From Candidatus Cloacimonadota bacterium (GTDB lineage Bacteria; Cloacimonadota; Cloacimonadia; Cloacimonadales; GCA-2742885): DNA of 47,986 nt. The notes under the pieces are model-generated. The model saw only the letters and a list, made by a program, of their open reading frames with translations. It was not told the DNA's origin and did not search any database. Position numbers and translations under genes: made by a program. Below are positions 22,648-47,986 of the stretch, piece after piece; the stretch's first letter is position 1, and every line of letters begins with the position of its first letter. The stretch covers positions 1 through 47,986 of the forward strand of contig PDOO01000002.1 of assembly GCA_002742885.1 (NCBI GenBank), given 5' to 3'.

Positions 22648-22652
22648 TTTTT

Positions 22653-23773: not shown

Positions 23774-23778
23774 AATTT

Positions 23779-23935: not shown

Positions 23936-23950
23936 ACCGGCAAAACCGGT
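23936..23950 (-). terminator. Weak hairpin after flagellin copy 3
   Basis: ACCGG/CCGGT with a five-base loop lies 23 bases after the copy 3 stop codon. On the minus strand it is followed by an AT-rich but not T-only stretch, so it may be a partial terminator or an mRNA 3'-end stabiliser. Confidence 0.35.
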
Positions 23951-23972
23951 ATCAAATCTGTATTTTAAGATT

Positions 23973-24941
23973 TTACCCCAATAATCTGAGAGCCATTTGC
24001 GGCAATGAGTTAGCCTGAGCAAGCATGGCGATTGCAGATTGAGTTAAAACTTGATTTTTGGTAAATTCGGTCATTTCGCTTGCCAAATCAACATCTGATA
24101 TCTGAGATTCGGCTGCTTGCAAATTTTCTTTTTGAGATTGAAGAGACAATATCGTATTATCCAATCTGTTCATCATTGAACCGATATAAGCTCTGTTCTT
24201 TTCTTTCGCCATAATGGCTGTATCTATTTGTTCAAGAGCTACCTGAGCCAAGTGCTGAGTCGAAATGGAGATAGTTCTTGAAGCAAGCGTATTTGCCCCG
24301 TTTGTTACATCGGCAAACAAACCGTTAGTAGTCATATCGCCTATATTGATAAAATAGTAGTCCTCTGCTCTGTTGTTTCCGGTTCCGAAGTGAATTTTAA
24401 CACCGACGTTTCCGCCGTATTCTCCGTTTGCTTTAAGATTGTTTATGGGAGTATTGTCAGCATATCCTGATTGAACCCAACCGCCGGCGGTAACATTATC
24501 GTAAGCCGATGTTGACAAATCTCCGTTTATAAGTTTAATTCCTCCGAATTCGGTTGAAGCGGCGATACGGTCGATTTCAGCTGCCATGGCAGCAAATTCA
24601 GAGTGAATAATTTGACGTTGTTCATGAGTATAAGTACCGGTAGCAGCCTGTTCAGCCAATTGTTTCATGCGAACAAGTTTTTCGTCTATGACAGCCATTG
24701 CTCCTTCGGCTGTATGCAACATGTTAATTGCCATACGAGCATTTCTTACACCCTGGTCCAATACGCCTATGTCTGCTCTCATTTCTTCGCGAACAGCCAA
24801 TCCTGCTGCGTCGTCTTGCGCCGAATTTACTCTTAAACCTGTAGTCAATCTTTGGATTGATCTCCCCATGTTTGCATAATGGGTCTGTAAATTTGTTGCC
24901 GAATTATTGGCATACAAATTGTGATTGATATACAATGACAT
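23973..24941 (-). CDS. Flagellin, copy 3 (first of the array)
   Basis: Filament subunit of 322 residues, more divergent than copies 1 and 2. It opens MSLYINHNLYANNSATNLQT. It keeps the D1 signature RLTTGLRVNSAQDDAAGLAV, the EQAATGTYTHEQRQIIHSEF helix, GTGNNRAEDYYF in the short middle domain, and the end ANSLPQMALRLLG. The middle domain is shorter and has a different composition (ANGEYGGNVG). Such a minor flagellin may occupy one part of the filament, for example next to the hook. It starts at ATG with AAGGAGG, about 100 bases after the FlgN-like gene. Confidence 0.96.
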   Translation of the reverse strand: MSLYINHNLYANNSATNLQTHYANMGRSIQRLTTGLRVNSAQDDAAGLAVREEMRADIGVLDQGVRNARMAINMLHTAEGAMAVIDEKLVRMKQLAEQAATGTYTHEQRQIIHSEFAAMAAEIDRIAASTEFGGIKLINGDLSTSAYDNVTAGGWVQSGYADNTPINNLKANGEYGGNVGVKIHFGTGNNRAEDYYFINIGDMTTNGLFADVTNGANTLASRTISISTQHLAQVALEQIDTAIMAKEKNRAYIGSMMNRLDNTILSLQSQKENLQAAESQISDVDLASEMTEFTKNQVLTQSAIAMLAQANSLPQMALRLLG

Positions 24942-28509: not shown

Positions 28510-29865
28510 TTAATTATGTTCTATCCCGAGTTTTTTAATTTTAACGTGAATATTTTGTCTGGAAAATCCCGACACGGCAGCAGCTTCCGTAACGGAATTG
28601 CATTTTTTAAGCAGTCTTTTAAAGTAAATCAGCTCGAATTGATGTTTCGCCTGTTCGTAATTATCAGAAAATTCTATCGTGTTCATAACCTGACCGGTTT
28701 CAGACATATATTCCGGCAAATCTTCCGGATTAATTGTTTTATCGGAGCATAAAACGGCAGCATGTTCAATAACGTTTTGCAATTCCCGGACATTCCCTTC
28801 CCAAGTATGTTTTATCAGAACTTTCATGGCGGCGCGAGAAATTTTAAATTCGCTTAAAGAATTTTCTTTTTGAAATTCATTCAAAAAATGATAAGCCAGC
28901 AGAGGAATGTCTTCCGTTCTTTGTCTGAGAGGAGGAACCGTTATCTTGATAACGTTAAGTCGATAAAAAAGATCTTTTCTGAAATTACCTTTTTTAACCT
29001 CTTCTTCCAAATTTCTGTTAGTGGCAGCGATGATCCTGACATCAACGGGAATAAGTTTTTCGCTTCCTACTCTTCTTATTTTCTTTTCTTGTAAAACTCT
29101 CAGAAGTTTAACCTGAAAAGACGGCGCGGTTTCTCCTATTTCATCCAAAAACAAAGTACTTTTGTGAGCAGTTTCAAAATATCCCCGAGAATCTTTAACG
29201 GCTCCCGTAAATGAACCTTTTTCATGCCCGAAAAGCAAACTTTCCAATAAATTTTCAGCTACCGCTCCGCAATTAACGGCAATAAATTCCCTGTTTGATC
29301 TCGAACTTTCTTCATGGATAAGCCGAGCAATCATTTCTTTTCCGGTTCCGGTTTCTCCGTTTACCAAAACCGTTGTATTGAGAGGAGCAACTTTAGAAAT
29401 AACATTCAAAACCTTATTTACGGATCGGCAATTTCCGATGAACTCTTTTTTGCTTTTTTGTTTTAAAAGCTGTTGTTTTAATTCTTTATTTTCTTTTTTG
29501 AGATATTGAGACGCCAAAGCTTTTTCGGTCATGACGGTTAAAATATCAAGATTCACTATGGGTTTCTCAATAAAATCAAAAGCTCCGGCATGCATAGCCT
29601 GAACAGCCATTTTCACGGTTGCCTTGCCGCTCATTACCAAGATTGGACAATCCTCCGCAATTTTCTGCAAATCTTTGATAAATTTCAGATCTTCGGCTCC
29701 CGGCATTACCAAATCGCTTATAATGCAACTTATTTCATTTTTTCGGAGAATATCGAAAGCATCCCCAAGTCTGTCGGCGGTAAAGACATTATAAGTTTTA
29801 CATAATTTTCTTTTACATATTTCAAGTGTTTGAATTTCGTCATCTATCAATAAAATATTTTTCAT
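28510..29865 (-). CDS. Sigma-54-dependent response regulator, NtrC family
   Basis: A transcription activator of 451 residues. The receiver domain (1-120) has the acidic pair DD at 8-9 and the phospho-acceptor D51 in IISDLVMPG. The AAA+ domain (about 140-375) has Walker A GETGTGKE, the sigma-54 contact loop GSFTGA, Walker B LFLDEIGE and the arginine-rich RIIAATNRNLEEEV segment. A Fis-type helix-turn-helix ends the protein (VTEAAAVSGFSRQNIHVKIK). It is the last gene of the ten-gene run, 8 bases after the barrel gene. The histidine kinase domain of the 1865-residue protein four genes upstream is its most likely partner. Confidence 0.95.
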   Translation of the reverse strand: MKNILLIDDEIQTLEICKRKLCKTYNVFTADRLGDAFDILRKNEISCIISDLVMPGAEDLKFIKDLQKIAEDCPILVMSGKATVKMAVQAMHAGAFDFIEKPIVNLDILTVMTEKALASQYLKKENKELKQQLLKQKSKKEFIGNCRSVNKVLNVISKVAPLNTTVLVNGETGTGKEMIARLIHEESSRSNREFIAVNCGAVAENLLESLLFGHEKGSFTGAVKDSRGYFETAHKSTLFLDEIGETAPSFQVKLLRVLQEKKIRRVGSEKLIPVDVRIIAATNRNLEEEVKKGNFRKDLFYRLNVIKITVPPLRQRTEDIPLLAYHFLNEFQKENSLSEFKISRAAMKVLIKHTWEGNVRELQNVIEHAAVLCSDKTINPEDLPEYMSETGQVMNTIEFSDNYEQAKHQFELIYFKRLLKKCNSVTEAAAVSGFSRQNIHVKIKKLGIEHN

Positions 29866-29873
29866 AACATCCT

Positions 29874-31355
29874 TTAAAAATAATATTTAACGCCTAATGA
29901 AAGCTCAAGTTCAGATTCGGGAGCATATAAATAATCCTTATAATCATCGTTTAAAATATTATCGGCTTTCAAATAAAATCCCAAATCGGGGCGATACTGC
30001 AAATTAATCAGAGCATTTGAACGAAATATCGAATCCGCATTGTTTCCGAGATGATCTTTGCGTCCGTCTTCAAAAACAAATTCAAGAGATGAAGTTATTG
30101 AAGAATAAGACCATTTTAATGCTGTTTTTGCCGTAATTTCAGAATAATAAGAAAGTTCTTTTCCGTCTTTGTCTCGCAAATAAGAGTAAATAAATTCTCC
30201 GTAAATTCCTGTATTTTTATAAGCAAAATTGCAGTTCAAAGAAATACGATGTTCCCAAGAATCACGGGTTTTAACAGAAAAAAGAGGACTTGCCGAATCA
30301 GAATAAGATGCCTCAGAATAATATACAGGCAAATGGTAACGGAATCTGAAAGCGTATTCAAATCTTAAAGGCAAAAAAGTAAAAATGTTAACGGCTGTTC
30401 CGAGGTTAAGAGGCGTTTTTTCTCCGTTAAAATCTTCTCCCGGTTTAAGATAAGGATTTGTTTCGTAATAATAAATCGCTCTCCTGACGGTTCCGTAAGG
30501 TTTATTAAAAATTTCCAATTGAATTTTTTTGTTTATTTCTTTTAAAAAAGAGAAAGGAAGCGAGGCATATAAATGACTGTCGTCTCCCGCCAGCCAAATT
30601 CCGTAATTTTTGAAAAATATTTCGGATTCCCGATTAATTCGCAGAGCGGTAACCTCACCGGAGGCTTTTCCGGTTAAATAATTTGTTTTTATTTCAGCTT
30701 CCGAAGAAAAATCCTCCAAACATATTTTGGAAACAGATGAAAATTCCAGACGGAAAAACGAATCTTTATTTATAAAATCCTCTTCTTCGATATCGACTCC
30801 CAAACGAAAATCCTGTTTGCAAAAAGTAAAATAATCTCCTTTGAAAATATCTGAAAAAGATAAATCTGCGTAAGCTCCGAAGGCATTTGATTTAAGCAAG
30901 ACATCTTTATTCTCAAATTTATAAAACCAAGCTCCGAGACCAGAGACATAATTGTCTGATCCCGGATGCCAGCGAAAATATCCGTTACTGAATTTTCCTG
31001 AAGAATCAAGTTTTCTGCTTTTCAAACCGGCTGAAAAAGCCAAAAGTTTTTCGGAGGCGTAATAAGAAGCAATTTTCAGGGAAGCTCCGGGCAAATAACT
31101 GAAATCGCCCCAAACAGCCCAATTAAGCTGAGAGTAATGTTCAACGACATCTTCAATCGTTACTGAAGGAAGATATAAGTATCTGAATTTTTTATCGAAC
31201 TCCGTGTTCCAATAATCTTTCATAACTGTTTCAAATTTGACGGAATCCGCAACATCGACGCTTTCTCCCGTAATGACAACTTCCGGAATTTCTATGGCTG
31301 ATTCTGCAAAAATCAAACCGGGAATAAGAGCCAAAACAATAATTAAATATTTCAT
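29874..31355 (-). CDS. Outer-membrane beta-barrel protein with TonB-box-like N-terminus
   Basis: An exported 493-residue protein. A Sec signal peptide (MKYLIIVLALIPGLIFAES) is followed by EIPEVVITGE, a motif seen at the N-terminus of TonB-dependent proteins in FCB bacteria. No plug domain follows. From residue about 95 the sequence is alternating aromatic/hydrophobic beta-strands, and it ends GVKYYF with the C-terminal Phe of outer-membrane barrels. Its size is like that of the alginate exporter AlgE, but no direct similarity can be claimed. The start ATG is one base after the TPR gene stop codon, with GGAG inside that gene. Likely role: outer-membrane pore or sensor, paired with the TPR protein. 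Confidence 0.75.
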   Translation of the reverse strand: MKYLIIVLALIPGLIFAESAIEIPEVVITGESVDVADSVKFETVMKDYWNTEFDKKFRYLYLPSVTIEDVVEHYSQLNWAVWGDFSYLPGASLKIASYYASEKLLAFSAGLKSRKLDSSGKFSNGYFRWHPGSDNYVSGLGAWFYKFENKDVLLKSNAFGAYADLSFSDIFKGDYFTFCKQDFRLGVDIEEEDFINKDSFFRLEFSSVSKICLEDFSSEAEIKTNYLTGKASGEVTALRINRESEIFFKNYGIWLAGDDSHLYASLPFSFLKEINKKIQLEIFNKPYGTVRRAIYYYETNPYLKPGEDFNGEKTPLNLGTAVNIFTFLPLRFEYAFRFRYHLPVYYSEASYSDSASPLFSVKTRDSWEHRISLNCNFAYKNTGIYGEFIYSYLRDKDGKELSYYSEITAKTALKWSYSSITSSLEFVFEDGRKDHLGNNADSIFRSNALINLQYRPDLGFYLKADNILNDDYKDYLYAPESELELSLGVKYYF

Positions 31356-31356
31356 T

Positions 31357-34260
31357 TTATTCTCCGTCTTCCGAATTTCCGTTTAACTCGTCTTCGGTAA
31401 AATATTTTTTTAACTCAGTTTTTTGTTTTTCGTTTAAATCGCGTTTTATCATATCGTAAATAAGCAAAGCTTTGTCTTTTTTTTCTGTTTTAAGATAGCA
31501 AAGAACAGCAGTAAATTCGCTTTCGGTTTTAATCTCGTTCAAATCGGGATAAACGTAACGCACCCTGAGAAGCTCCGGAACGGCAAGAGAATATTTGCCG
31601 GAAAGATATAAATTCAAACCCTTGTAATACTGAGCTTCGGCTTTTATTTCTCTTTGTTCCGACCTGAGAAGTTCTCCGATAATTTTTTCGGCTTCCGTAT
31701 TTTTGCCGTTTTTTAAAAGGTATTTTATTTTACTGAGTTCGGCGACTTCTCGGTATTCGGAGGAAAGTAATTTAAATTTTGCATCGAATATTTTTTCGAA
31801 TCCCGGAGACCCTGATTCCGCCGTAAACTTCAAAGCCGTTAAAATCAAATCCTGATCTTCCGAAACTTCAACATTTTTCATCAAAAGATTTATTGCTTTG
31901 ACGGTATCTTTTTGAGCAGTGTAAATTTTTATTAATTTTACCAAAATTTTTGGATCAGGATTTTGTTTATACCAACTTTTTAAAATTTTTTCGGCATCCT
32001 CAAAACGGTTTAAGTTATAATATGCCGAGGAAATAAAATCTTTAACAGAAATCATCTGTTCGTTTGTTAAAGAATAATTTTCGATTTCTTTTCCGACTTT
32101 TAAAATATCCGTCCAGAAGCCGTTTTTGTAATCAAAATCAAGAATTTTAAACAAAACAGCCTTTCTGTAATCGTCATCTTCGGAATTATCTCTCAAAACT
32201 CTTAAAGTATCGGAAAGATTAATTCCGGAAATCATGCCGGATGACCATTCAAGACCGTTTAAGGCATTGTTGAGAACATTAAGATCAACTCCGGGACGAG
32301 CAGGTTTACGATAATATTTGAATGCTTTACGGTAATCTCCGAGATTATAATAACAGTCTGCAATACTGAGGTTTACGGCATCATATTCTTTTTCTGCTTC
32401 CGGAGTTTCGGCGTATTCGGAATATAAATCCGCCGCAGCAAGATAATCTTCGGCGCTGAAAGACGCTTGAGCTGCAAGTTTCAAATAAGAACTTTCGTTA
32501 TTTCCTGATTTTGCCAACTCAATGTAAATTTCGGAAGCTCTTTCAAATTTTCCGGATTTGTAACAAGTCCATGCCAAACGATTTTTTACTTCGTTAAGCT
32601 GAGCTTCCGTTTCGGCTTCTTTGAGCGCGTCTTCATAACGTAAAACGGCTTTTTCATAATTTTTCTTATTATAAAAAATATTTCCGGCAATCATCAATTT
32701 ATCGAAAACAAATTCCGGAGTTTCGGGCAAAAGTTTCAAAGCTTCCGAAGCTGCCTCGTAATTTCCCAGAGCAGAGTTTAAAGAAGCAATTCTTTTTCTG
32801 ATCAACCCTTTATCCGATTTTCCTTTTACGGCTTTTTCATAGCACCTCAAAGCCTTTTCAGGCAAGTTTCTCATTCTGTAAACTTCTCCGAGATAAAAAT
32901 AAGCCAAAGCGTTTTTTTCGGAATCCGGACAAGTTTCGACATAATCGTTAAGTTTCGCTCCGGCAACAACAAAATCTTTTTTCAGATAGTAAAATAACGC
33001 AATTTTAAATTTTGCTTCATCAGAAAATTCTCCGTCGGGAAACAGAGATAGATAAAGATCAAACTGTTTTTTCGCCTCATCGTAAGATTCTTTTCCGAAA
33101 AGAATTTCTCCCGAAAGATAAGTCGCTTTTTCTTTGTACTCTTTTTTCAAATCGTAATTTAACGCTTCTTTGACATAAAATGCCGCCGAGTCAGGTTTTC
33201 CGATCTCAAAATAATTAAATCCCAATAAACAAAAAGCGGTTCCTTTATAATTATCATTTTCGTTAATCTCGATAAATTCGGATAATCTCTTGTTTGCTTC
33301 TTCTTTTTCGGTAAGAGAAATAATGTTAATCAGATGAAAAAAACTTTCCGCGCTTATGTCTTCATCTTTGCTTTCATGCTCCAATCGAGAAAAAACTTCT
33401 GCCGCTTTTTCTGTTTCGTCTTTTTCCAAATACGACAAAGCGGCTATATAAGAAACTTCGTCCGACGGATTCTTTGATTTTTCAAATAAATCTATACACA
33501 TGTCGATTCGATTCAGTTTAAAGTTTGCTTTTGAAATTAAAGTCAAATATTGATTGTAATATTGAGAAGAAGGGGTAACCGTTACCGGCAGATTTTCCGT
33601 CATTTTTTCATACATTTTGTTTTTATGCATATAATTGAGGTAAAGAACAATCGCTTTTGCCTGAAATTCATAATAAAAATTTTTCAATTTCATATATTCG
33701 ATTAAATTTTTTGCCTCTTCTTCATTTCCCGAATTAAGATTAACGGATATTAAACCCAAATTTATTTCCGCATTATCTTTCTTTGATTTAGCCAAAGTAA
33801 AATCATCATAGGCAGTGTTGTATTTTTTCTTGTAAAGATTGATTTTTCCGGAAAAATATACTGCTTTCCAAAATTCCGGGTGAAGAGGATAACGAGATCG
33901 GAATTTTCTCGCATCTTCCAAAGCAGCATCATAATTTTCAAGCTGATAAGCAGTTTCAATCTTACAAAGAAGATACTCGGGAGCAAAAGAAGATTCCGAC
34001 ATGTTTTTTTCATCGCTTTCCAATATTTTAGAAGCTTTCTTAAATTTATTTTCTTTCAAATAAACGGCAGCAAGCATAAATTTCATGGAGACCGACTGTT
34101 CGCTTTCAGGATAATTTTTAATAAAATCTTCCAATTCGCGTTCGACAATATCATACATGCCGTCTTTGTATAATCCGTTTATAAATTGAATATCCTCTCT
34201 TTCTCCCGCCTGCAATAACATCGCCAAAACGGTTAACGCCGTCAAAATTATTTTTTTCAT
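31357..34260 (-). CDS. Exported TPR-repeat protein
   Basis: A 967-residue protein with a Sec signal peptide (MKKIILTALTVLAMLLQAG); no lipobox cysteine follows, so it is probably a soluble periplasmic protein. The remainder is a solenoid of many tetratricopeptide repeats, with unit patterns such as ALAYFYLGEVYRMRNLPEKA and AAEVFSRLEH. TPR scaffolds of this size accompany outer-membrane barrels in polysaccharide exporters (AlgK, PgaA, BcsC) and in several FCB envelope systems. Its start is one base after the upstream stop and its end one base before the barrel gene, so strong translational coupling is likely. The cargo is unknown. Confidence 0.85.
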   Translation of the reverse strand: MKKIILTALTVLAMLLQAGEREDIQFINGLYKDGMYDIVERELEDFIKNYPESEQSVSMKFMLAAVYLKENKFKKASKILESDEKNMSESSFAPEYLLCKIETAYQLENYDAALEDARKFRSRYPLHPEFWKAVYFSGKINLYKKKYNTAYDDFTLAKSKKDNAEINLGLISVNLNSGNEEEAKNLIEYMKLKNFYYEFQAKAIVLYLNYMHKNKMYEKMTENLPVTVTPSSQYYNQYLTLISKANFKLNRIDMCIDLFEKSKNPSDEVSYIAALSYLEKDETEKAAEVFSRLEHESKDEDISAESFFHLINIISLTEKEEANKRLSEFIEINENDNYKGTAFCLLGFNYFEIGKPDSAAFYVKEALNYDLKKEYKEKATYLSGEILFGKESYDEAKKQFDLYLSLFPDGEFSDEAKFKIALFYYLKKDFVVAGAKLNDYVETCPDSEKNALAYFYLGEVYRMRNLPEKALRCYEKAVKGKSDKGLIRKRIASLNSALGNYEAASEALKLLPETPEFVFDKLMIAGNIFYNKKNYEKAVLRYEDALKEAETEAQLNEVKNRLAWTCYKSGKFERASEIYIELAKSGNNESSYLKLAAQASFSAEDYLAAADLYSEYAETPEAEKEYDAVNLSIADCYYNLGDYRKAFKYYRKPARPGVDLNVLNNALNGLEWSSGMISGINLSDTLRVLRDNSEDDDYRKAVLFKILDFDYKNGFWTDILKVGKEIENYSLTNEQMISVKDFISSAYYNLNRFEDAEKILKSWYKQNPDPKILVKLIKIYTAQKDTVKAINLLMKNVEVSEDQDLILTALKFTAESGSPGFEKIFDAKFKLLSSEYREVAELSKIKYLLKNGKNTEAEKIIGELLRSEQREIKAEAQYYKGLNLYLSGKYSLAVPELLRVRYVYPDLNEIKTESEFTAVLCYLKTEKKDKALLIYDMIKRDLNEKQKTELKKYFTEDELNGNSEDGE

Positions 34261-34261
34261 T

Positions 34262-35059
34262 TTACCTCAATTTCGTTAAAATTTCATTTAAACATTTTTC
34301 GTTGTTTTCTTTAAATTTTTTATAAATATCCGTTAAATAAATCGTTTTAATTCTAAAATATTTCAGAATTTTTTCAAATTCAGGATCATCCGTAAAACAT
34401 AAATCGCACATACTCGCAAAAATTATTTTATCAGTTAAAGATTTTGCTTTTATTTTACGAGAAGAACCGGTATTTCCGGCATCGGCGCAATTCATAAAAT
34501 AAAGATTGGCGTAAAATTTTTCAGTCAAAGCGCCAAAAAACTTTCTTTTGCTCGGCGTAAGCCAAAAGTTTCCGTGCGACACAGTCAAATGAGGATGCGA
34601 ATTTGCAAACATTCCGGAAACATATTGATTTTTTTTTATTTCAAACTCCGTCTCTGATTTTTTATAATTAACTTTCCAAAAACGATAAAAACTTTCAATC
34701 GGTTTATCGGGAATTGAATCATTAATGTAAAAGTTAGTATTTTTCCCGTTTCCGAAAACAATATTGCCGGGATTTTCGCTTATAAATTTTTTTGCCGATT
34801 TATCCTGATCTAAAGCAAAAATAATCTCATTTTCGTACTTTGCAATATGTTTTCCGTACGGTTTTATTTCCAATCCGTCATGACCTTTAAAAAAACCGAA
34901 TAATTCCGTTTGTTCATAAGGTATAAAGAAAATAACTTGTTTGAAAATTTCGGTTAATCCGATTATATCTTCTATCAGTTCAATATTTTTTAAAACTTTT
35001 TTCCCGCCTGTAACCAGCAAAAATCCGGGATTATTCAGAATTTTTCCGAAATTAATCAT
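34262..35059 (-). CDS. Hypothetical protein of the envelope/signalling run
   Basis: A 265-residue protein I do not recognise. There is no signal peptide or membrane helix. The alternation of short hydrophobic strands (GFLLVTGG, VIFFIPY, NEIIFALD) with helices suggests a Rossmann-like fold, and a weak likeness to GT-B glycosyltransferases (heptosyltransferase type) is possible but unproven. Two motifs stand out: HPHLTVSHGNFWLTPSKRKF and MCDLCF. I chose the ATG at 35057-35059, which overlaps the kinase stop by eight bases and has GGAG four bases upstream. The longer frame would overlap the kinase by 53 bases. Confidence 0.7.
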   Translation of the reverse strand: MINFGKILNNPGFLLVTGGKKVLKNIELIEDIIGLTEIFKQVIFFIPYEQTELFGFFKGHDGLEIKPYGKHIAKYENEIIFALDQDKSAKKFISENPGNIVFGNGKNTNFYINDSIPDKPIESFYRFWKVNYKKSETEFEIKKNQYVSGMFANSHPHLTVSHGNFWLTPSKRKFFGALTEKFYANLYFMNCADAGNTGSSRKIKAKSLTDKIIFASMCDLCFTDDPEFEKILKYFRIKTIYLTDIYKKFKENNEKCLNEILTKLR

Positions 35060-38000
35060 ACTGCTCCGAAGAATCCTTGTTCTCTCTGACCGGAATTGCC
35101 GCAAAAACAGATGTTCCTTCTCCTTTTTCGGAGCGTATCCACATTTTTCCGTAATGCAATTCCGCTATTCTTTTAGAAACCGAAAGTCCTATCCCCAAAC
35201 CGTTTGACTTGTATTCAACAATACCTGATTTATGAGAATAAATATCCGTTACTTCAAAATATTCATCCCAAACATTATCCAAGTAACATTTTTCAATTCC
35301 CGTTCCGTTGTCTTGAACATATATAACGACACTGTCCGAGTCATTTACTTTTTCGGCAGGAAAAGCTGATTTTCTCACGCCTACCGTTATAATTCCGTAA
35401 TCTCTGGAAAAACGAATAGCGTTTAAAACCAGATTATAAATCATCAAATAAAAAGCTTCCCAATTGATATTCAATTCCGGAATATCATTTTCCGATTCAA
35501 GTTTAATTTTCATCTTGCGCTTAGCGGAAATAATCATTCCTTCATCAACAATACTTTCCATAATATCTCTGATATCCATTGGGGCTAAATGCAAAGAATC
35601 AATTAACTTATATTTATTCATATTCATAATGTCCCGGGTTGAAGAAATAAGACGTTTAACTCCAGAAGTTATTTCATTAAATATTTTGTTTCGTTCGTTT
35701 TCGTCTGAAAAACGTTTTTTGTAAGCTCGGCTTATATTTCCCTGAAGATTTACAAGCGGAGTATTAAGTTCATGAGCGACAATTTTTGCAAAATCCGTCT
35801 TAATTTTATCAAAAGAGCGAAGTTGTTTGTTTCCTTTAGAGAGGGAATCATACTGCAAAGCGTTTTTTATGGCAATAGAGGTTTGTTCCAAAAGCATATC
35901 CATAAATGTCTGATTAATTTCGACTTTTCTTATTACAGGAGATTTATCCGATAACATTCCCATAAAATTTTTAGATTCTTTTACTTCTGCAAGAAGATTA
36001 TCAAGGTAAAGAATGCCGTAAATATCATCGTACACTTTAAGAGGAGCGCAATAGACCGTCTCAGAAGAGTCTGAGCCGTTAAAATCAGAGGATCTTCTTT
36101 CCTCAACATCATTTTCCGAGTGATAAGTTTTGCCGTATTCTTGAACTTCTCCGATAATATCTTTATCCAAATCGGTGTAACCGGTTATATTATTTCCTTT
36201 GTAATCAACCGATACTTTTATATCGTTATCGTATCTTCCGGTTCTTATGAAAAAACCTCGTTTCAAACGGGTAAATTCCAAAGCATAAGACACAAGCTGA
36301 TTTTCAAGAACATCAATATCAACGGTTGAAAATAAATTTCTGCTTACTTTCATCAATTGATCCATGAGAGAAACACTTTTTTGCAAGGAAGAAAATTTAT
36401 TGATTCTGATAAAAAGAGCGCTCAAGTGCAATCTCATATTTTCAATAATCATAAGCTCGGTTTCGCTGTAATCCAATTCGAGAGAATCTGCAAGCACAAG
36501 ACAACCGAAGTAATTTTTCTTTATTCTCAAAGGGATAAACAGTTTATTTATTTTTCCGGATTTTCGATTAATAACGACATTATTTTCCAGAGATTTCTTT
36601 GCATTGGCATAAAAATCATCGTCTCTTATCTTGAAATCAGTGTCATTGCTGCATAAGAAAGAATTGTGTCTTTTATCGAAATCATCTTCCTGAACAACCG
36701 TAAAAGATTCGGGAGCCAAATATTTATGCACGGTTCTTTTTAAGAAAAATTTAATCCTTTCGGCATCGATTAATTTAAGAAGATCGTACATTTCCTCCTG
36801 CCATGACTCACGGTCGAATATTTTGCGGTCGGCTATAAATACAGAATTAAGCTCGCTTGCCGAAGTAATATTGTTAATTTTCATTTTGATATATTTCTTT
36901 TTGAATTTTTGCGGAATTCCTTCGCAGGCATTATGAACGGATTCGACATACTTATTAAAATATTTTTCAGCCGATTTTTTATTTCCGGCAAAGTAATAAA
37001 TTTGAGTAATAATCTCGTAATATTTCACCTCGAGAATAAATAATTTATTTTCCTTTATCTTATCTTCGAGAGAAATTATTTCACGCAAAATTTGACGAAC
37101 GGGAATTTCCGGCAATTGAAGTCTGTATTCTGTTTCCAATAAAGACAAAACTATGCTCCAATAAGAGAAATTGCCGTATTCGGCAATACTTACGGCTTTT
37201 GCAAGCATATTTTTAATTTCGTCTAATTCACCGAGATTAAGATAACATCTGATTATCTGTATCATCAAAATACATTGAGCGTACCGACTTTGTATTTGCT
37301 CAGCTGATTTTAAAGCCCTGTAAAAAAAGTTCAGAGCTTCCCGGTGATCTCCTTCCAGGCAACATTCCAGACCTCTCATTTGATAACCAAAATCTTCTTC
37401 GTGAAGCTTAATGAAGTCTATATCGGGATTAGCGTATAAAATATCTTTTATTTCATCCGTATTTCCGGTATTGACCAATAAATAAAAATAAGCTTTTATC
37501 GCCGGATCAAATTTTTTTATTTCTCTTTTCATGAGTTCCGGATACTCTTTTTCCAAATAAGAATACAGGTTGCCCCAGTTTTTTATTTTGCTTTTTGCCA
37601 AAGCAAAATTGCTGTATATACCGTCCATAAATTCTTTCGAACCTATTGACGACAAAATATTCTGAGACTCGGAAAGAAATTCTTCCGCTTTAAAAAACTT
37701 ACCCTGTTTAATGTAAGCTTCCGCAAAATTAAGCAACGCCAAAGCCTGTCCCGGTTTCTGTCCCAATTCTCGATTTAAATCGCAAGCTCTTTGAAAATAT
37801 TCTAATGAAGAATCGGTATTTCCCTCACGCAAAGCCATGTCTCCCAAGTTATTATAGATAACTCCGAGACTTTTCTTAAAATTAATTTTTTCCCATAAAA
37901 TTCTGGTTTGTTTATAATATTTTCTGGCATCTTCATAGTTTTTCAATTCGCCGTGAACGAAAGCCAAGTTATTGTAAAGACTTCCCATGCGTTGACTGAA

Positions 38001-40649: not shown

Positions 40650-40694
40650 TTTTCCTCCAAATTAATTTATATTTTATTTCTTTGTCTTTTGATT

Positions 40695-43211
40695 TTATGC
40701 CGACAAAATATCTTTGCCGTTTTTCTTTTTCTTCAACTCAAAAAATATTCCGATAAGCAACAATGCAACAGCGGTAACCGTTGCCGATTCGCCGATTAAG
40801 TGAGTGGAAATCAATGTTTTCGGAACCATTTTAAACTTAACCGTATGTTCGCCGGCAGGAACGATTACAGATCTCAAAACATGATCCGTTTTGTAAAACG
40901 GAGTTTCTTTTCCGTCCGTAAAAGCTTTCCAGCCTTTGGGATAATAAATCTCCGAAACAACCAGTAAAGATTGATTTTCGTTTTCCGTTTTAAATTCAAC
41001 TTCGTTGGGATTCAACTTTGTAAGGATTACCTTTGCGTTTTGCGGAGATTTAATTTCTTGCGGCAATTCAGTTTCCAAAATCGCCTTTTTATGAACGTCG
41101 AATTTATCGCTTTTCAAAAGGTCGAAACGCTCTTTTCTCGTCTTTTTTATCTCATAATCACCGACAAACCAGGCTCGTCCGCAAGCTTTTTTATTTTGAT
41201 AGACGATTTTATCGTTTCCCCGAAAAACTTCTTCCAGATTATCGAAAGGATAAGATCCGGGCAAAGGTCTGTCGGCAAGATAATATTCGGCATTCAGCAT
41301 ATCAAGGATGTTGCGAGCAAAAATTCCCGTCTTTTCCATTCTTCCGAAATCCATTAAATCCTGAACAATTCTAAGTTTGGCGGGACTGTATCCGCCTATT
41401 GACTGATGGAAATAAGAATAATCGTTGGAATTCCAGATATTCGGCATGAGAGGATAAATTCTGAAAGATTCAAATTCAAGATTCTTTTCTTTGCGGGAAT
41501 CCAAAAATTCATCGTATTTTTTCTTTTTAAAGTAATTTTTAACCATATTTCCCTGATACGATAAATTAGTGTATTTTCCGTTTACCTTCTCTATCAAATA
41601 ACGTCCCTGAATTTGATAAAAATCAATAAACATCAAAACGCATAAAACAAGCGCGATCGAAAAAGGATGCTTAAAAAATATTTTTTTCGCAAATAAAAAC
41701 GCCAATACCGAGACCAAAAGAGAGAACATTAAAAGGCGTTGCGCATCGTGAACCAAAAATTCCCGTCTCACAGCCTTTATCATCTCCAATACGTTTCCTT
41801 TATACTGAGCTAAATCACGACCTCTCGAATAATCCAATCCGGAAGAAAGGGCAAAAGCCAAAAGAGAAACCGCAATCAAAAAACCGCCCGCAATTAAGAT
41901 GTATTTACTCAAGTTTTTCTTTTCTTCGTCAGTTTCGGAAGCAAAAAAAGCTTGAATCCCGTAACCGGCAAAAACCGTCGCAATAAAATAATTTACAACC
42001 AAAGCCATAGCGGGAACTCTGAATTTATTGAAAAACGGAACCGCCGAGAAAAAAACGTTGTAAAGCGGAAGAAAATGTCGTCCGAAAGAAAGAACGTAAG
42101 TCAAACATCCCAGAGCAAACATCGCTTGAACAAAGCTGTTTTTCCTGTTTGCAATCAATCCGATGAGAGCAAAAAAGATAATAATTATGCCCGTATATTC
42201 GGTCGTTTCCGTAAAAGGCATATGTCCCCAATAACCCGGCATTTTTTTGCCGGCAAGATGCGGAAATTGAGGATTATTTATATTGTAAGTTTCACCGCTT
42301 GTTCCTCCGAAGAAACGGGGAATTAAAAAGTTGAAAGATTCCATCGGATGAAAAGACCAGCCCGTGGCATAATTTATATCCAAACCTTTGGAATTTTCTT
42401 CCCCCGTACCGCCTCGAATGGAAAAAGGCGTAAACTCTTTGGCAAGCAGGAAAGGCTGAAGAACCAAAGCAAACACGAGAACAGCCGAAAATAAAAGAAA
42501 AATTAATGATTTTCCGACAGGTTTCTTATTTTTTAAAGCTCCGGCAAAGTACCGAATTCCGATAAAAAGAAGAATTAACAAAGCGTAAAAAGTAATCTGA
42601 TAGTGTTTCATCCTGATTAAAAAAGCAAAGGAAAGAGAGAATAAAGCCAAATTCAAAATACCTGGTTTCTTCAAAATTCGCAAAGCCGTTACGGTCAAAA
42701 GAGGAAAAAGCATAATCGGTCTGAACTTCATAAAGTGTCCGATCTGAATAAGAGAAGCCCAATGGGGAATCAAAACAAAGCCCAGAGCAACCGTAAAAGA
42801 AGCGAAAGGCGGAAACTTTAAGTGTCGCCCCAAAAACATCATTCCCGCAAAACCGAGCAAATAAAAAACAAAGCACTGACCGCCTCTTCCCCCGAAAATT
42901 CTTCCGATAAAATAAAAAAAACTGTCTATTGATTTTACCGTATCGGTCTTCCAGTAAACGGGCATCCCGGAAAATAAAACAGGATTCCAATAAGCTGTTT
43001 CCCCGGTCTTTTCCGACCAATCGGAAACTTGATTCATTTTACCTCTGCCGGCAATAATGTCGGTTCCTCCCGGCTGCAGATTTTGAAAAACCATGGGATA
43101 AAAAACCGAGGCAATAATTATTATCCCCAATATACTTAAAATTGTTGTCCGATAACGTGAAATTTTATCAAAAAAAGATAAAGCGGTATTTTTTTCGTTC
43201 CTGTTTTTCAT
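40695..43211 (-). CDS. YfhO-like polytopic membrane protein (possible GT-C glycosyltransferase)
   Basis: An 838-residue inner-membrane protein. About twelve membrane helices fill residues 20-540, a periplasmic domain (about 545-790) follows, and a last helix (LIGESATVTAVALLLIGIFF) sits before a Lys-rich end. The loop FWNP-like motif (ETAYWNPVLFSGMPVYW) and the periplasmic VSEIYYPKGWKAFTDGKE followed by VPAGEHTVKFKMVP are characteristic of the YfhO family, whose members act in wall-polymer or lipid glycosylation. The likely job here is to transfer a lipid-linked sugar outside the membrane. It starts one base after the upstream epimerase gene, and no terminator separates it from the kinase gene 45 bases on. 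Confidence 0.85.
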   Translation of the reverse strand: MKNRNEKNTALSFFDKISRYRTTILSILGIIIIASVFYPMVFQNLQPGGTDIIAGRGKMNQVSDWSEKTGETAYWNPVLFSGMPVYWKTDTVKSIDSFFYFIGRIFGGRGGQCFVFYLLGFAGMMFLGRHLKFPPFASFTVALGFVLIPHWASLIQIGHFMKFRPIMLFPLLTVTALRILKKPGILNLALFSLSFAFLIRMKHYQITFYALLILLFIGIRYFAGALKNKKPVGKSLIFLLFSAVLVFALVLQPFLLAKEFTPFSIRGGTGEENSKGLDINYATGWSFHPMESFNFLIPRFFGGTSGETYNINNPQFPHLAGKKMPGYWGHMPFTETTEYTGIIIIFFALIGLIANRKNSFVQAMFALGCLTYVLSFGRHFLPLYNVFFSAVPFFNKFRVPAMALVVNYFIATVFAGYGIQAFFASETDEEKKNLSKYILIAGGFLIAVSLLAFALSSGLDYSRGRDLAQYKGNVLEMIKAVRREFLVHDAQRLLMFSLLVSVLAFLFAKKIFFKHPFSIALVLCVLMFIDFYQIQGRYLIEKVNGKYTNLSYQGNMVKNYFKKKKYDEFLDSRKEKNLEFESFRIYPLMPNIWNSNDYSYFHQSIGGYSPAKLRIVQDLMDFGRMEKTGIFARNILDMLNAEYYLADRPLPGSYPFDNLEEVFRGNDKIVYQNKKACGRAWFVGDYEIKKTRKERFDLLKSDKFDVHKKAILETELPQEIKSPQNAKVILTKLNPNEVEFKTENENQSLLVVSEIYYPKGWKAFTDGKETPFYKTDHVLRSVIVPAGEHTVKFKMVPKTLISTHLIGESATVTAVALLLIGIFFELKKKKNGKDILSA

Positions 43212-43212
43212 T

Positions 43213-44274
43213 CTATCCTCTCGTAAATATTGATTTATATTTTAATCTTCTGGAAAAAGCATCAAGCAGCATTTTAATTTTCGCCAAAGAAAAATAAGGC
43301 TCGTTGTTATAATTTTCCCATTTCAAATAATATGTTTTAAAAATTTCTTTTCCGGTAATTTGATAAAGTATCTTCAATTGCGGAACGTGAACTCCGTTAT
43401 GATATTTATAATCGCATATATAACTGTATTTTCCGTCATAAAAACTCCAATATCCGGCATCGTATTCATCTAAACTTTCGGCAACGGTTTTTACGCCCGC
43501 TTCAAAAAGTTTTTTCGCTTCGGGATCGGAACTTACCCGCCAAAAATCATACAAACCCAAACAGGCGTTTATATGTCCGTTCAAAACCGAATTGGCGGGA
43601 ACTGAGGGATATTCTTCAAACCGAATGTTACCGTTTTCGTCAAAAGAAGCCGTTCCCCCGTTTTTAACTTCGACTTTAAGGTTATTAATTAATTTTTCAG
43701 TCAAAATCTTTATTTCTTCACTCGGTTCCAATTGATACAATCTCGCCAAAGCCGATAATTGGTTGCCGATTGCCCATGCTCCCGTCCAACCTGTTTCCAG
43801 ACCGTATTTATTAAATCCTGCCGGTTGTCTCCAAAATGCCAGACTGTCTTTAAAGACAACATTCTCAAGCAGCCATTTCTTCATAATTTCAATATCGGCA
43901 AGATATGCCGGGTCAGATGAAATTTTAAATTGATTAAAATCAAGAATAATTTGCGCGCTCATGTCAGTCGGCATGTAAAGAGTGTCTTTATCCGAATCAA
44001 AAACATATTTTTTTGGATCAAAATTTTTCTTCAAGCGATAAAAAATACCGTTCTTATCTCTTTCAATATTCAATGTTTTCGAGTTTTTGTCAAAAATAAA
44101 ATAATACTCTATATTTCCGATATCGCCGTCGGCATTCCATAAATTCAAATCCAAATTTCTTTTTTCAAATTTTTTTACGGAAGGTTCTATATAAGAAAAT
44201 CCGAGCAAATAAAATAAAAGCAAAAGCAAAAAAACAATAATTATCGCCCCGAAAATATTTTTTATTTTATTCAT
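43213..44274 (-). CDS. Membrane-anchored D-glucuronyl C5-epimerase-like protein
   Basis: A 353-residue protein with one N-terminal membrane helix (IIIVFLLLLLFYLLGF); the rest is predicted outside the membrane. The C-terminal half matches the glucuronyl C5-epimerase catalytic domain: NSVLNGHINACLGLYDFW, EYDAGYWSFYDGKY, YHNGVHVPQLKILYQITG. Two tyrosines (Y279 in FYDG and Y291 in KYHNG) line up with catalytic tyrosines of animal heparan-sulfate epimerase. Such enzymes flip glucuronic to iduronic acid within a polymer. I chose the ATG that overlaps the GT2 stop codon by eight bases, since the 27 extra residues upstream have no support. An (alpha/alpha)6 lyase-like function is the main alternative. 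Confidence 0.75.
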   Translation of the reverse strand: MNKIKNIFGAIIIVFLLLLLFYLLGFSYIEPSVKKFEKRNLDLNLWNADGDIGNIEYYFIFDKNSKTLNIERDKNGIFYRLKKNFDPKKYVFDSDKDTLYMPTDMSAQIILDFNQFKISSDPAYLADIEIMKKWLLENVVFKDSLAFWRQPAGFNKYGLETGWTGAWAIGNQLSALARLYQLEPSEEIKILTEKLINNLKVEVKNGGTASFDENGNIRFEEYPSVPANSVLNGHINACLGLYDFWRVSSDPEAKKLFEAGVKTVAESLDEYDAGYWSFYDGKYSYICDYKYHNGVHVPQLKILYQITGKEIFKTYYLKWENYNNEPYFSLAKIKMLLDAFSRRLKYKSIFTRG

Positions 44275-45289
44275 AATATTTTTTGGTGAAACCTTCGGCG
44301 ATTTTTCCCTTTCTGCTTTTAAAAAGTCCCCAAAACAATCCGAAACCGTAAGCAAAAACCTGAATAAACAAAGTTAAAACGGATAAAAACGAAACTTTCG
44401 GAGATTTGTATTTTTTTAAAGATTCCAACCAGGCAAAACAGGCGACTCCGACTCCCGCCGATAAAGTCAACTTAAATAATTTTCCAAAAATTTTGCCGAA
44501 AGGCGCAAGCAGAACACTGAGAAACGTCCACAAAACAACAACAGCCGGAGCAAAATGAACCGGTTTAAGCATTTCTTTGTCGTCTTTTCCCAAATTGATT
44601 CTGGCAACTCCCCAATTGAAAATCTGTTTAAAAAATTTCTTCAAGGAAGTCCTTCTTTTGTGGTAAACAAAAGCATCGGGAATCAAGTCAACCTTAAACC
44701 CCGCCCGATAAATTCTTCCGGAAAATTCCATATCCTGACCGTGTCTCAAATTTCCCATTCCGCCCGCGGTTTCGTAAACCCGGCGACTTATTCCCATGTT
44801 AAAGCTTCTCGGATAAAATTTGGTTACCGATTTTTTCGATCCCCGTGTTCCCCCCGTTCCGATAAAAGATGTCATGGAATAATTTATGGCTTTAAGAAGA
44901 GGCGGAAAATCGGGATGACAGGTATCGGGACCTCCGAAAGCGTCCGGTTTATGTTCTTCAACGTGATTATCGATTTTTTCCAACCAATCGGGCGGAAAAA
45001 GACAATCGGAATCGACATAAATAAAATATTCTCCGTCCGCATTCTCCATGCCGTGATTTCGAGCCGCTCCGGGACCTTTGTTTTCCTGATAAATCGAACT
45101 AATATTCAGTCCGGATAACGATTTGTAATTTTCGATATATTCTCGGAATCCGTCCGTTGAACCGTCGTCCGAAAAAAGAATTTCAAATTTATTGCGAGGA
45201 AATTGCAGCTTCTCGGCGGACTCAAGCAATTCCCCGACTTCATTCAATCTGTTGTAAACAGCAATTATAACAGAATATTTAAAACCCAT
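44267..45289 (-). CDS. Family 2 glycosyltransferase with C-terminal membrane segments
   Basis: An inverting sugar transferase of 340 residues. The GT-A domain opens YSVIIAVYNRLNEVGELLES and has the nucleotide-binding SDDGSTDG and the metal-binding DSD in FIYVDSDCLFPPDWL. The acceptor side has GGPDTCHPDFPP and NMGISRRVYETAGG. Two or three hydrophobic helices follow residue 235, so it is anchored at the inner membrane. It lacks the QxxRW motif of processive synthases, so it probably adds single sugars to a lipid carrier. The start directly follows the stop codon of the upstream epimerase-like gene. Confidence 0.92.
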   Translation of the reverse strand: MGFKYSVIIAVYNRLNEVGELLESAEKLQFPRNKFEILFSDDGSTDGFREYIENYKSLSGLNISSIYQENKGPGAARNHGMENADGEYFIYVDSDCLFPPDWLEKIDNHVEEHKPDAFGGPDTCHPDFPPLLKAINYSMTSFIGTGGTRGSKKSVTKFYPRSFNMGISRRVYETAGGMGNLRHGQDMEFSGRIYRAGFKVDLIPDAFVYHKRRTSLKKFFKQIFNWGVARINLGKDDKEMLKPVHFAPAVVVLWTFLSVLLAPFGKIFGKLFKLTLSAGVGVACFAWLESLKKYKSPKVSFLSVLTLFIQVFAYGFGLFWGLFKSRKGKIAEGFTKKYYE

Positions 45290-46285
45290 TTAGATCCGTC
45301 CTGTCTTTTTTAAGGCTTTATATTTATAAAAATACATTTTAATTACATTAAAAAAGGAAATCTGTTTTTTGAATATGCCGGCATACTTTTTAAAAACACT
45401 CTCGCCTGTCAATTTATACAAAAAATTCATTTGAGTAATGTGCAAATGCTGATAAGCAATCGTTGCCGGATCAAACTCAGGGTAAAAGTCCGCTTCGCAT
45501 AAATTGTATTTTGTCCAAAATTTCAGATCATATTCGGGAATAATTTTTCGCAAAGTGCAAATTCCGGCATCATAAAGTTTTTGAGCCAATCTGTTTTCCG
45601 GGCAAACCCTGATAAAATCATGCAAACCGCACATCGCAAAAATCATCCCGTTTAAAACCAAAACAGGAAATTCCGCCGTATATTCTTCGTAAAACGGTCC
45701 GAAGGGCGTAAAAGAAGTTACTCCCCCGTCTTTGACTCCGACAGTATAAGGCAGCAAAGCTTGTTCGGCAAGTTCAAGCCATTTTTTATTCCCGGTAAGC
45801 TGATAACCGCGCAACAAAACGGAAATCGCTCTGGATTGTACGAAAGCGGATTGCCAAGATCCCGGATTTTTATACTGCGGCAAAGAAACATCCGTCCGCC
45901 ATATTGCTCCGAGTTCTTCGGAAATCTCGGCATTATCGGCAAACCACCGGGGAAACTTCAAAAAACGTTCTTTGTCTTCCTCCGATTTTGTTTGCAGATA
46001 AGTATGAAAAACCGCCAATCCCACTTGCCCTATCGTAATCGGGAAATAAACGTAATCCTTGTCTTTAACGTCTATATAAGTAGGATTCATCGGAATACCG
46101 TTTTCGTCCGAAACTATGCTTTTCTGTCCGCCTTTTTGATTGACTACCGTGTCTTCCCGAAAAAGAAAATAATACTCTTTAAGTTCCGAATCCGTCATAT
46201 CCTCGGCAAGATCCCAAACGGTGGGGTTAAAAATATCTTTTCGGATTCGTAAAAGAAAGAACAAATATTTATTTTTTATTTTCAT
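45290..46285 (-). CDS. D-glucuronyl C5-epimerase-like protein (soluble)
   Basis: A 331-residue protein without signal peptide or membrane helix. Motifs of the C5-epimerase C-terminal family are present in order: FPVLVLNGMIFAMCGLHDFI, then EYDLKFWTKYNLCEA, then AYQHLHITQMNFLYKLTG. The aligned tyrosines are Y260 (KYN) and Y278 (AYQHLH), 18 residues apart as in the vertebrate enzyme. It is only distantly similar to the second epimerase-like gene in the locus, which argues for different roles rather than recent duplication. It overlaps the GT4 gene by 17 bases. How a cytoplasmic form would meet a polymer substrate is unclear; it might bind or act on lipid-linked oligosaccharide. Confidence 0.75.
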   Translation of the reverse strand: MKIKNKYLFFLLRIRKDIFNPTVWDLAEDMTDSELKEYYFLFREDTVVNQKGGQKSIVSDENGIPMNPTYIDVKDKDYVYFPITIGQVGLAVFHTYLQTKSEEDKERFLKFPRWFADNAEISEELGAIWRTDVSLPQYKNPGSWQSAFVQSRAISVLLRGYQLTGNKKWLELAEQALLPYTVGVKDGGVTSFTPFGPFYEEYTAEFPVLVLNGMIFAMCGLHDFIRVCPENRLAQKLYDAGICTLRKIIPEYDLKFWTKYNLCEADFYPEFDPATIAYQHLHITQMNFLYKLTGESVFKKYAGIFKKQISFFNVIKMYFYKYKALKKTGRI

Positions 46286-47576
46286 TAATCGCTTCCTCTA
46301 AAATTACCGCTAATCTCTCGGTCAAAAACCGTCTGTGATAAGCAGAAATTTTTTCATGATTAAATTTCATCGGAGATTTTCCCTCTTCCAGAGCTTTCAT
46401 TATCCCGGTCAATAATCTTTCGGTTTCTTCTTTGTTTTCAACAGGTATTCTTACGCCCGATCCGGTTTCCGCAATGATTTTTTCCGTTTCCGAATTTTCC
46501 GGCAAACACGCCAAAATCGGTTTCATGTATCCGAGATATTCACAGGTTTTCCCGGCGACAATGTCTTTCGCCTCAGGCAAATCGTCCATAACAATCCAAA
46601 GAGCGGAAGCGGATTTCAATTTTTCGGTTAAAATATTGTGAGGAACGTAAGATTCAAAAGAAAGCATGTCGCAAGGAAAATTTTTGCGGAAAGAAGCTTT
46701 CGATTCTTCATCTATTCGCCCGATAAAACAAAGACGCAAATTGTCTCTTATGAAAGAATTTTCTTTTATTATTTCTTTCAAAATTTCCGTAAAGCGAGCC
46801 GGATAACGTCTGGTATAAAAAGAACCTGCGTAAACAAGATCAAATTTGTTCGATTCGGGTTTGACGTAAGCCCGGGGCAAGTCAAAATCAAAACCGTTCG
46901 GAATCCAAACATCTTTATCTCCCGAGCAGGGGAAAGATTTTTTTATTCCTTTCCAGGCAAGAGTTTGTTTGAAGCAAACAGAAGAACAGAAGTTCTTTAA
47001 AAAATCATCAAATTTATCGGCAAACCGGATTCTCATTTTCTTGTTTTGATAAGATCCCCAAGGATCGCGACAATCAAAAATCCAAGGGATTCCCGTAAAA
47101 AAACTTACTCCGGAAGCTATCACGCCGGCGGAATAAGGAGGAGACGTGGAAATAACGGCTGAACATTTTTCTTTTTTAACGATTCTTATCCCTTTTAAAA
47201 TTCCTCCCGGAATCCAAAAACTTTTGGCATCCGGAACAAAAATATTCGCTCTGATAAAATCAACAATTTTATGTTTAAAACTCTTTTTGCGTCCGCCGAA
47301 AACCGTACCCTTATCAAACCCTGATTTTTGATCTATTCCCATAAATTTTTTGTACAAGGAATAAGGTTCGGGAATAAACATTTTGTAAATTTTCAATACG
47401 GACGGTATTTCCGAAAACAATTCGCCGTCTTTTACCGGATAATCTCCGTTTTTGACGGTAAGAATAACCGGTTCAAATCCGAAATCACGCAAATATTTCA
47501 CAAATTTCAAAATACGCTGTATTCCGGGACCGCCCGCCGGCGGCCAATAATAAGTTACCACAAGGACTTTTTTCAC
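46269..47576 (-). CDS. Family 4 glycosyltransferase (GTG start)
   Basis: A retaining GT-B sugar transferase of 435 residues, cytoplasmic face of the inner membrane. The N-terminal domain opens KKVLVVTYYWPPAGGPGIQR and has STSPPYSAGVIASG and PWIFDCRDPWG. The C-terminal domain has LVYAGSFYTRRYP and the nucleotide-sugar region AKDIVAGKTCEYLGYMKPIL. The exact sugar cannot be read. The start is GTG with AGGA seven bases upstream; a nearby ATG is out of frame. It is the first gene of the ten-gene minus-strand run and has a candidate promoter just upstream. Confidence 0.92.
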   Translation of the reverse strand: MKKVLVVTYYWPPAGGPGIQRILKFVKYLRDFGFEPVILTVKNGDYPVKDGELFSEIPSVLKIYKMFIPEPYSLYKKFMGIDQKSGFDKGTVFGGRKKSFKHKIVDFIRANIFVPDAKSFWIPGGILKGIRIVKKEKCSAVISTSPPYSAGVIASGVSFFTGIPWIFDCRDPWGSYQNKKMRIRFADKFDDFLKNFCSSVCFKQTLAWKGIKKSFPCSGDKDVWIPNGFDFDLPRAYVKPESNKFDLVYAGSFYTRRYPARFTEILKEIIKENSFIRDNLRLCFIGRIDEESKASFRKNFPCDMLSFESYVPHNILTEKLKSASALWIVMDDLPEAKDIVAGKTCEYLGYMKPILACLPENSETEKIIAETGSGVRIPVENKEETERLLTGIMKALEEGKSPMKFNHEKISAYHRRFLTERLAVILEEAINENKK

Positions 47577-47639: not shown

Positions 47640-47843
47640 GACGTATTTTATTATCTTTCTCACACCATGATTAAATTATCTTCTGACCCGGATGTTTCAC
47701 ATATTATTTATATTTTATATGTTGCCGTAATTAAAACAGGTTAAAATTCCCGTCCTCCGAAGATCTGCAAGCAAATCTTACAATAAACTCCCTTCATTGC
47801 TCCGGCAACACCTGCAGGGACTGCTTCCTGTCTGCCTTTTATC

Positions 47844-47877
47844 TCCCTCGCCCTCCGGGAGAGGGTTGGGGTGAGGG
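47844..47877. repeat. GC-rich intergenic hairpin repeat (CCCTC / GAGGG type)
   Basis: CTCCCTCGCCCTCC, then GGGAGAGGG, then GGGGTGAGGG form overlapping inverted repeats. The pattern is well known as a dispersed intergenic element in many bacterial genomes. Only one full copy is in this window, so repetition here is inferred from that knowledge. Confidence 0.5.
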
Positions 47878-47949
47878 TTTTAAATCACCTCAAAAACAGC
47901 GAAGTCTCGGAAGTATTTACGACCGCCCCGTCAATACTGCGTATTGCCG

Positions 47950-47965
47950 CCCCTCCGCTGAGGGG
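47950..47965. repeat. Short perfect GC-rich hairpin
   Basis: CCCCTC pairs with GAGGGG around CGCT. It resembles the element at 47844-47877 in composition and may be part of the same repeat family. Confidence 0.4.
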
Positions 47966-47986
47966 AATGTAAAAATGAAGAAGGTT

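Follow-up and report, generated by a model that had tools for sequence, protein, structure and literature searches.

When ten genes are packed on one strand with hardly a base between them, do they form one system or only share an address? This question is raised by contig PDOO01000002.1 of a Candidatus Cloacimonadota bacterium (assembly GCA_002742885.1, 2.17 Mb in 53 contigs), which we analysed as a complete contig of 47,986 bases, hereafter the window. The listing of its open reading frames (ORFs) has ten of them, all on the minus strand, at 28510-47576 (Table 1). An earlier reading of the letters, referred to here as the original prediction, took the ten for a single surface polysaccharide system that contains its own sensing module. 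The reading that we prefer, and in which we place about as much trust as doubt, is that of two neighbouring units: a conserved envelope-signalling module (28510-40649), with a giant kinase, a 265-aa protein, an exported TPR protein, an outer-membrane type barrel and a sigma-54 regulator, next to glycan genes (40695-47576). The conserved module, rather than the join of ten genes, is in our view the interesting part of the locus.

Conservation and make-up of the proposed envelope-signalling module

Two samples were searched, one of 58 genomes, that of the window included, and one of 124 genomes of the phylum, 106 of them in the order holding the relatives (Cloacimonadales) and 18 outside it. The kinase was found in 55 of the 58 genomes (E <= 1e-40) and in 110 of the 124 (E <= 1e-60), 14 of them among the 18 that fall outside that order. 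The TPR protein is present in 85 of the 124 (1e-40), all within the order, and in 0/18 outside, so the kinase is older than the TPR-barrel pair. A GTDB-wide scan with two short peptide patterns taken from 8 rows returned 28 loci with the TPR protein, 25 of Cloacimonadota and three weak ones of Omnitrophota. The barrel goes with it: a strong match, by our own cut 88 bits or more, was seen in 79 of the 85 genomes having the TPR protein, and no genome has a strong barrel match without the TPR protein. The six remaining genomes have partial TPR matches or matches beside a contig start (the contig ends in G068 and G103 were not seen).

Gene order was read at 39 kinase loci, one from each of 39 relatives (genomes and loci carry our own numbers, G and L). 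The TPR gene lies directly after the kinase gene, or after the kinase gene and a member of the 265-aa family (F4), at 25/39 loci, and the barrel gene follows at 22/39; F4 itself occurs at 15/39. Spacing ranges from -8 to +6 bases between the TPR and barrel genes at all 22 adjacent pairs, and from -14 to +27 between the kinase and TPR genes at 14/14. The family alignments omit a truncated barrel (L038, alignment A1), two partial TPR proteins (L039 and L123, A3) and kinase pieces of 308 and 374 aa, and L093_7 stands in the kinase alignment without its catalytic loop. The stretches read around the 39 loci contained neither an epimerase nor a YfhO homologue, and neither is among the 25 families listed of 103 upstream and of 98 downstream. 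In relatives the kinase, the 265-aa gene, the TPR protein and the barrel occur as a set with no polysaccharide genes beside them, which goes against a single polysaccharide system. The original prediction had itself named relatives having its five signalling and envelope genes without the five polysaccharide genes as evidence against it; this is what we observed for four of the five, and the fifth, the NtrC-type regulator, lies elsewhere in relatives.

By Pfam, the kinase joins an N-terminal serine/threonine kinase (STK) and a C-terminal HisKA/HATPase part in one chain, and is in this sense a dual kinase; it has no transmembrane (TM)-like window and no Pfam match to a GAF domain. In the window kinase the catalytic Asp of the STK part is replaced by Asn133. 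This Asp is present in 32/38 kinases and lost in six, that of the window included, a pattern that parsimony explains by five events on a FastTree tree, and the histidine of the HisKA part is kept in 39/39. Outside the phylum, tblastn gave co-linear matches on plasmids of Nostoc and Calothrix, in two pieces each with 44% and 35% query coverage and 22-23% identity, annotated as 'serine/threonine protein kinase with two-component sensor domain'. Comparison of the neighbouring 265-aa protein with the GT9 fold, with two other glycosyltransferases as control, gave a plausible register that is not significant (hhalign probability 1%, E 0.054). The N-terminus of the TPR protein shows no lipobox by eye.

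None of 25 barrel family members has a Pfam match, plug included. For a profile of the 25 barrels, 33 PDB sequences are listed at E <= 1 (best 1.5e-4); every one is a TonB-dependent receptor, and AlgE, BcsC and PgaA are not among them. When aligned by hhalign with 15 receptors of the same phylum, the family matched with a probability of 97% over the last 115 columns and gave no plug alignment, and a receptor-type barrel is recognised for the C-terminal part only. Judged from its sequence, the barrel seems to descend from TonB-dependent nutrient receptors and to have kept an N-terminus resembling a TonB box, whereas no plug could be detected. TonB C-terminal domains are found in 55/58 genomes; one 505-aa open frame (G025:C118:50497-51840) has four matches to this domain.

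The regulator has a Sigma54_activat domain and a sigma-54 gene is present in the same genome, as is expected of a sigma-54 activator; sigma-54 itself is found in 56/58 genomes. It reaches the cut-off of none of the 25 NCBIfam models listed of 90, and any orthology with AlgB is putative. Relatives of the regulator (E <= 1e-100) occur in 36/58 genomes, own included; outside the window none adjoins the module, the nearest seen being about 7 kb from a kinase (G021, G044). Receiver proteins adjoin the TPR-barrel pair in other lineages, at L109 and L128 (Pfam on L128 only) and at L111 and L112 (histidine kinase and NtrC-type regulator checked in L112 only). The genes at L109 (16262-17185) and L128 (17351-18259) are homologous and directly 3' of the barrel gene, the L128 protein combines a receiver with HATPase_c_2, and the kinases of both genomes are without the STK catalytic Asp. 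A second NtrC-type regulator follows a histidine kinase gene at L206 (G000:C17:45000-55000), with a homologue of the GT4-like gene downstream.

The glycan genes and the junction

The five upstream genes encode two proteins of the D-glucuronyl C5-epimerase family (EPI1 and EPI2), two glycosyltransferase-like proteins (GT4 and GT2) and a YfhO-family protein. EPI1 matches human and zebrafish GLCE in PDB and has tyrosine at all three positions compared, which are known as those of the catalytic tyrosines; a second human GLCE chain in the same comparison has Phe at one of them. For EPI2 against EPI1, two of the three tyrosine positions align by machine and the third by eye. PF06662 is the sole Pfam match of both, and neither is an AlgG-type mannuronan epimerase by this measure. 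The alginate parallel drawn in the original prediction is thus not borne out, the epimerases being of the PF06662 heparosan/GLCE family and the barrel matching TonB-dependent receptors, not AlgE; an alginate-type reading was rejected on Pfam and the PDB profile. Of the parts list, the tight one-strand packing, two glucuronyl C5-epimerase family proteins, an exported TPR protein with a barrel, and a two-component output survive, but not a ten-gene alginate-like system.

In relatives the glycan genes appear as two pairs. The GT4 homologue is directly before the epimerase in G052, G019, G031 and G043, the four other genomes with a close epimerase match, and, as a more distant case, in G025. The YfhO gene has GT2 as its neighbour in G043, G031, G048, G052 and G019; short stretches of G012 and G002 show no GT2 homologue beside YfhO. 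A Wzx-like flippase adjoins the YfhO-GT2 pair in G043, and a C25 (gingipain-type) peptidase adjoins the GT4-EPI1 pair at L043 (5439-10523). In these genomes the pairs are on contigs other than that of the kinase wherever both were seen (G031 has no kinase match). YfhO matches are found in 55/58 genomes, own included. The two pairs and EPI2 would together make an iduronate-containing surface glycan, and their place beside the module, seen in this genome only, is most likely species-specific.

Table 1. Genes of the ten-gene stretch, from the 3' to the 5' end (positions in the window; TM, transmembrane)
Product	Coordinates	Strand	Basis and remarks
NtrC-type sigma-54 response regulator	28510..29865	-	Pfam; receiver Asp and GSFTGA loop by eye
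493-aa barrel, TonB-box-like N-terminus	29874..31355	-	related to C-terminal part of TonB-dependent receptors
967-aa exported TPR protein	31357..34260	-	signal-peptide-like N-terminus; Pfam TPR
265-aa protein, no TM-like window, kept beside kinase	34262..35059	-	no family match
1865-aa soluble kinase	35052..40649	-	Pfam Pkinase, TPR, HisKA, HATPase; P-loop ATPase (Walker A motif)
YfhO-family membrane protein	40695..43211	-	PF09586, 8.4e-11; 8 TM-like windows
EPI2, second PF06662 protein, N-terminal membrane anchor	43213..44274	-	1.4e-36; TM-like window at residue 1
GT2 family glycosyltransferase	44267..45289	-	PF00535, 3.1e-31; pairs with YfhO in relatives
EPI1, D-glucuronyl C5-epimerase family	45290..46285	-	PF06662, 3.4e-41; 0 TM-like windows
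Glycosyltransferase-like gene (GT4, our own label)	46269..47576	-	no Pfam or NCBIfam match; homologue pairs with EPI1 in relatives

Re-reading the ORFs reproduced exactly the ten one-strand genes and the nine junctions of the original prediction, which in gene order (overlaps positive, gaps negative) are 17, 0, 8, -1, -45, 8, -1, -1 and -8 bases. ATG starts were taken for EPI2, whose mechanical ORF begins at TTG 44355, and for the 265-aa gene, whose mechanical ORF begins at TTG 35104. A purine-rich stretch lies within 22 bases 5' of nine of the ten starts by eye, EPI2 being the exception. As the window is a complete contig, the first (5') gene is only 410 bases from the contig end, where a palindrome-like GC-rich repeat was noticed by eye (47800-47986).

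The 45-base gap between the yfhO and kinase genes (40650-40694) is where the two units meet. No sigma-70-like site falls in it among the 60 of 75 sites listed, and the scan placed no terminator-like hairpin there. Just upstream, within the end of yfhO, is the top-ranked terminator-like hairpin of the region (minus strand 40784-40765, 8 pairs, weak T tail). Over the region, 25 terminator-like sites were counted where 19.4 are expected (sd 4.4), and 75 promoter-like sites where 57.3 are expected (sd 8.7), about 1.3 and 2 sd above shuffles, respectively, so that neither scan is decisive. A scan for sigma-54 promoters gave 11 sites with 13 expected. Both halves could be co-transcribed in this one genome.

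Weighing the readings

How might such a module work? The stem of the kinase, with its ATPase and TPR parts, may sense a cytoplasmic cue, and the histidine kinase part would hand phosphate to a response regulator, the output of which would adjust a channel formed by the TPR protein and the barrel and gated or driven by TonB. The STK-like head would sometimes be catalytically dead, as appears to be the case in the window, and the 265-aa protein would be a small partner. In this genome the sigma-54 regulator at the 3' end of the module probably takes over as output, and the glycan genes, two gene pairs plus EPI2, would have been joined locally to the older signalling and envelope module. In a bolder form, which we regard as rather doubtful, a plug-less TonB-coupled barrel on a long periplasmic TPR arm would be an outer-membrane gate set by an order-wide dual kinase, its Ser/Thr head would repeatedly have become a pseudokinase sensor, and in this species the module would have acquired a sigma-54 regulator of foreign origin together with an operon for a glucuronate/iduronate glycan.

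Several observations weigh against the two-unit reading. Nothing was found in the inner membrane that would link the soluble kinase to the proteins of the envelope. At 14/39 kinase loci no TPR gene adjoins (the contig of L099 begins where the kinase ends, and at L122 the stretch read stops soon after the kinase), and G105, which lacks the TPR protein, gives a weak barrel match of 20.6 bits over the N-terminal 61 columns. The likeness to a TonB box is modest: with a matrix built from hand-picked segments of 14 same-phylum receptors, the conserved site (LPDIIITGES and similar) ranks first in 7/25 barrels, a raw count of 10/25 containing three sites other than the expected one, and among the top two in 12/25; for the barrel of the window it takes second place. 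As control, the best site fell in the first 50 residues in 1/26 TPR and 0/16 265-aa proteins. The missing plug and the size of the barrel are read from sequence, the regulator adjoins the module in one genome only and its pairing with the giant kinase is a guess, and glycosyltransferases near the module in some lineages (L104, L117, L112) may reflect a looser link to glycans.

The ten genes might still be one polysaccharide system, in which the TPR-barrel pair exports the glycan of the upstream genes under control of the kinase and the NtrC-type regulator. The tight one-strand packing and a junction free of terminator-like sites are what such a system would show, and some relatives point the same way: after the TPR-barrel pair of G020 come a histidine kinase, an NtrC-type regulator and, beyond them, genes of the WecA-like and glycosyltransferase kinds; G030 has two glycosyltransferase-like genes directly 5' of the kinase, and a gene homologous to one of this kind stands two genes upstream in G028. 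We think it unlikely, however, given that epimerase and YfhO genes are missing from the stretches read around the relatives' kinase loci, where the only homologue of the GT2 gene is an 18-bit match about 7 kb away (L126), that the epimerase query matches 15/58 genomes (five above 400 bits, own included) against 55/58 for the kinase, and that the PDB matches of the barrel are devoid of AlgE, BcsC and PgaA. Also, the neighbours of the kinase are diverse. A Pfam scan of genes of at least 150 aa, covering 100 of 101 upstream (A5 omits L039:11462-14725) and 97/97 downstream genes, is led upstream by Mrp/NUBPL ATPase, lipid A acyltransferase and radical SAM protein and downstream by amidohydrolases and polysaccharide deacetylase, with PF00535 in 2/100 upstream genes. 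Three Por_Secre_tail proteins near kinase loci, together with the C25 peptidase at L043, hint at type IX secretion.

It is equally conceivable that the TPR protein and the barrel serve TonB-driven uptake or secretion in the manner of SusC/SusD, play no part in signalling and merely share an operon with the kinase. The kinship of the barrel to TonB-dependent receptors would fit, as would the combination of a TPR protein with a receptor-type barrel, known from RagAB (PMC11817032). The pair is also found away from the kinase in G003, G009, G020, G034 and others, on another contig in the first three among others. SusD-like proteins, on the other hand, are far shorter than the 967-aa TPR protein, in which no lipobox is seen by eye; the barrel shows no plug, and the pair adjoins the kinase at 22/39 loci, the TPR gene at 25/39, and this explanation seems improbable to us. 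A separate matter is what drives the regulator, which could still answer to an ancestral histidine kinase encoded elsewhere in the genome, its present position being accidental. At 6/8 loci of relatives a protein of 656-699 aa is directly upstream of the regulator; all six share an HN(L/I)N(S/T)PL box, and Pfam recognised HisKA and HATPase in each of the three to which it was applied. Because relatives of the regulator so often follow a histidine kinase of their own, that the giant kinase drives it can only be put forward as a hypothesis. Yet none of five histidine kinases examined from this genome has the box (no genome-wide search was made), G003 and G021 are without such an upstream protein, and the two full-length regulators most similar to it differ in this respect, that of G007 having an adjoining histidine kinase and that of G003 none. 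An ancestral partner elsewhere is thus possible, although we lean against it, and we retain two neighbouring units as the preferred description of the locus.

Elsewhere in the window, three consecutive flagellin genes lie on one strand (21658-24941).

Comparison with known systems

Envelope signalling in Cloacimonadota seems to have been little covered in the literature; we found no literature on the phylum and TonB-dependent proteins, and those parts of the literature on the phylum that were consulted make no mention of such an envelope-signalling module. The locus resembles the alginate system (AlgE, AlgK, AlgG, AlgB) in outline only, having TPR, barrel, epimerase and NtrC-type proteins, and differs from it in its PF06662 epimerases and in a receptor-like barrel with no AlgE match. 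The TPR and NtrC-type proteins match the NCBIfam models of PrsT and PrsR of the XrtA/PEP-CTERM exopolysaccharide system, but both score under the curated cut-offs, and an exosortase/PEP-CTERM reading was not adopted (no search was aimed at an exosortase).

With TonB-dependent receptors such as BtuB, OprC and the phylum's own, the barrel shares its C-terminal part and a TonB-box-like N-terminal motif, whereas it has about 490 residues, no plug detected and no carboxypeptidase-regulatory domain. A plug-less barrel of receptor type with such a motif, if true, would test what TonB does when there is no plug to pull. In having a receptor-type barrel encoded with a TPR protein the module is similar to SusC/SusD and RagA/RagB, where RagB is described as the 4-TPR lid of RagAB (PMC11817032). 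It departs from them in that no plug was found and in its 967-aa TPR protein, a non-lipoprotein by its N-terminus.

The epimerases share PF06662 with GLCE and a Bermanella enzyme, and EPI1 keeps the catalytic tyrosine positions. They differ in being two copies in one bacterial cluster. The Bermanella C5-epimerase is described as the only identified bacterial one (PMC13308652), and the two family members encoded in the window are candidate enzymes of iduronate synthesis in bacteria.

The closest parallel to the kinase is cbSTKIII of cyanobacteria (HstK, Pkn40/41), which is described as having an N-terminal STK, a GAF domain between and a C-terminal histidine kinase (PMC2176072). The window kinase shares the two ends of this arrangement and differs in having no Pfam match to GAF, in its link to an envelope TPR-barrel pair, and in that some of the Cloacimonadota kinases are without the catalytic Asp. 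Repeated loss of the Ser/Thr active site against a constant histidine is a natural test of which half of a dual kinase does the work.

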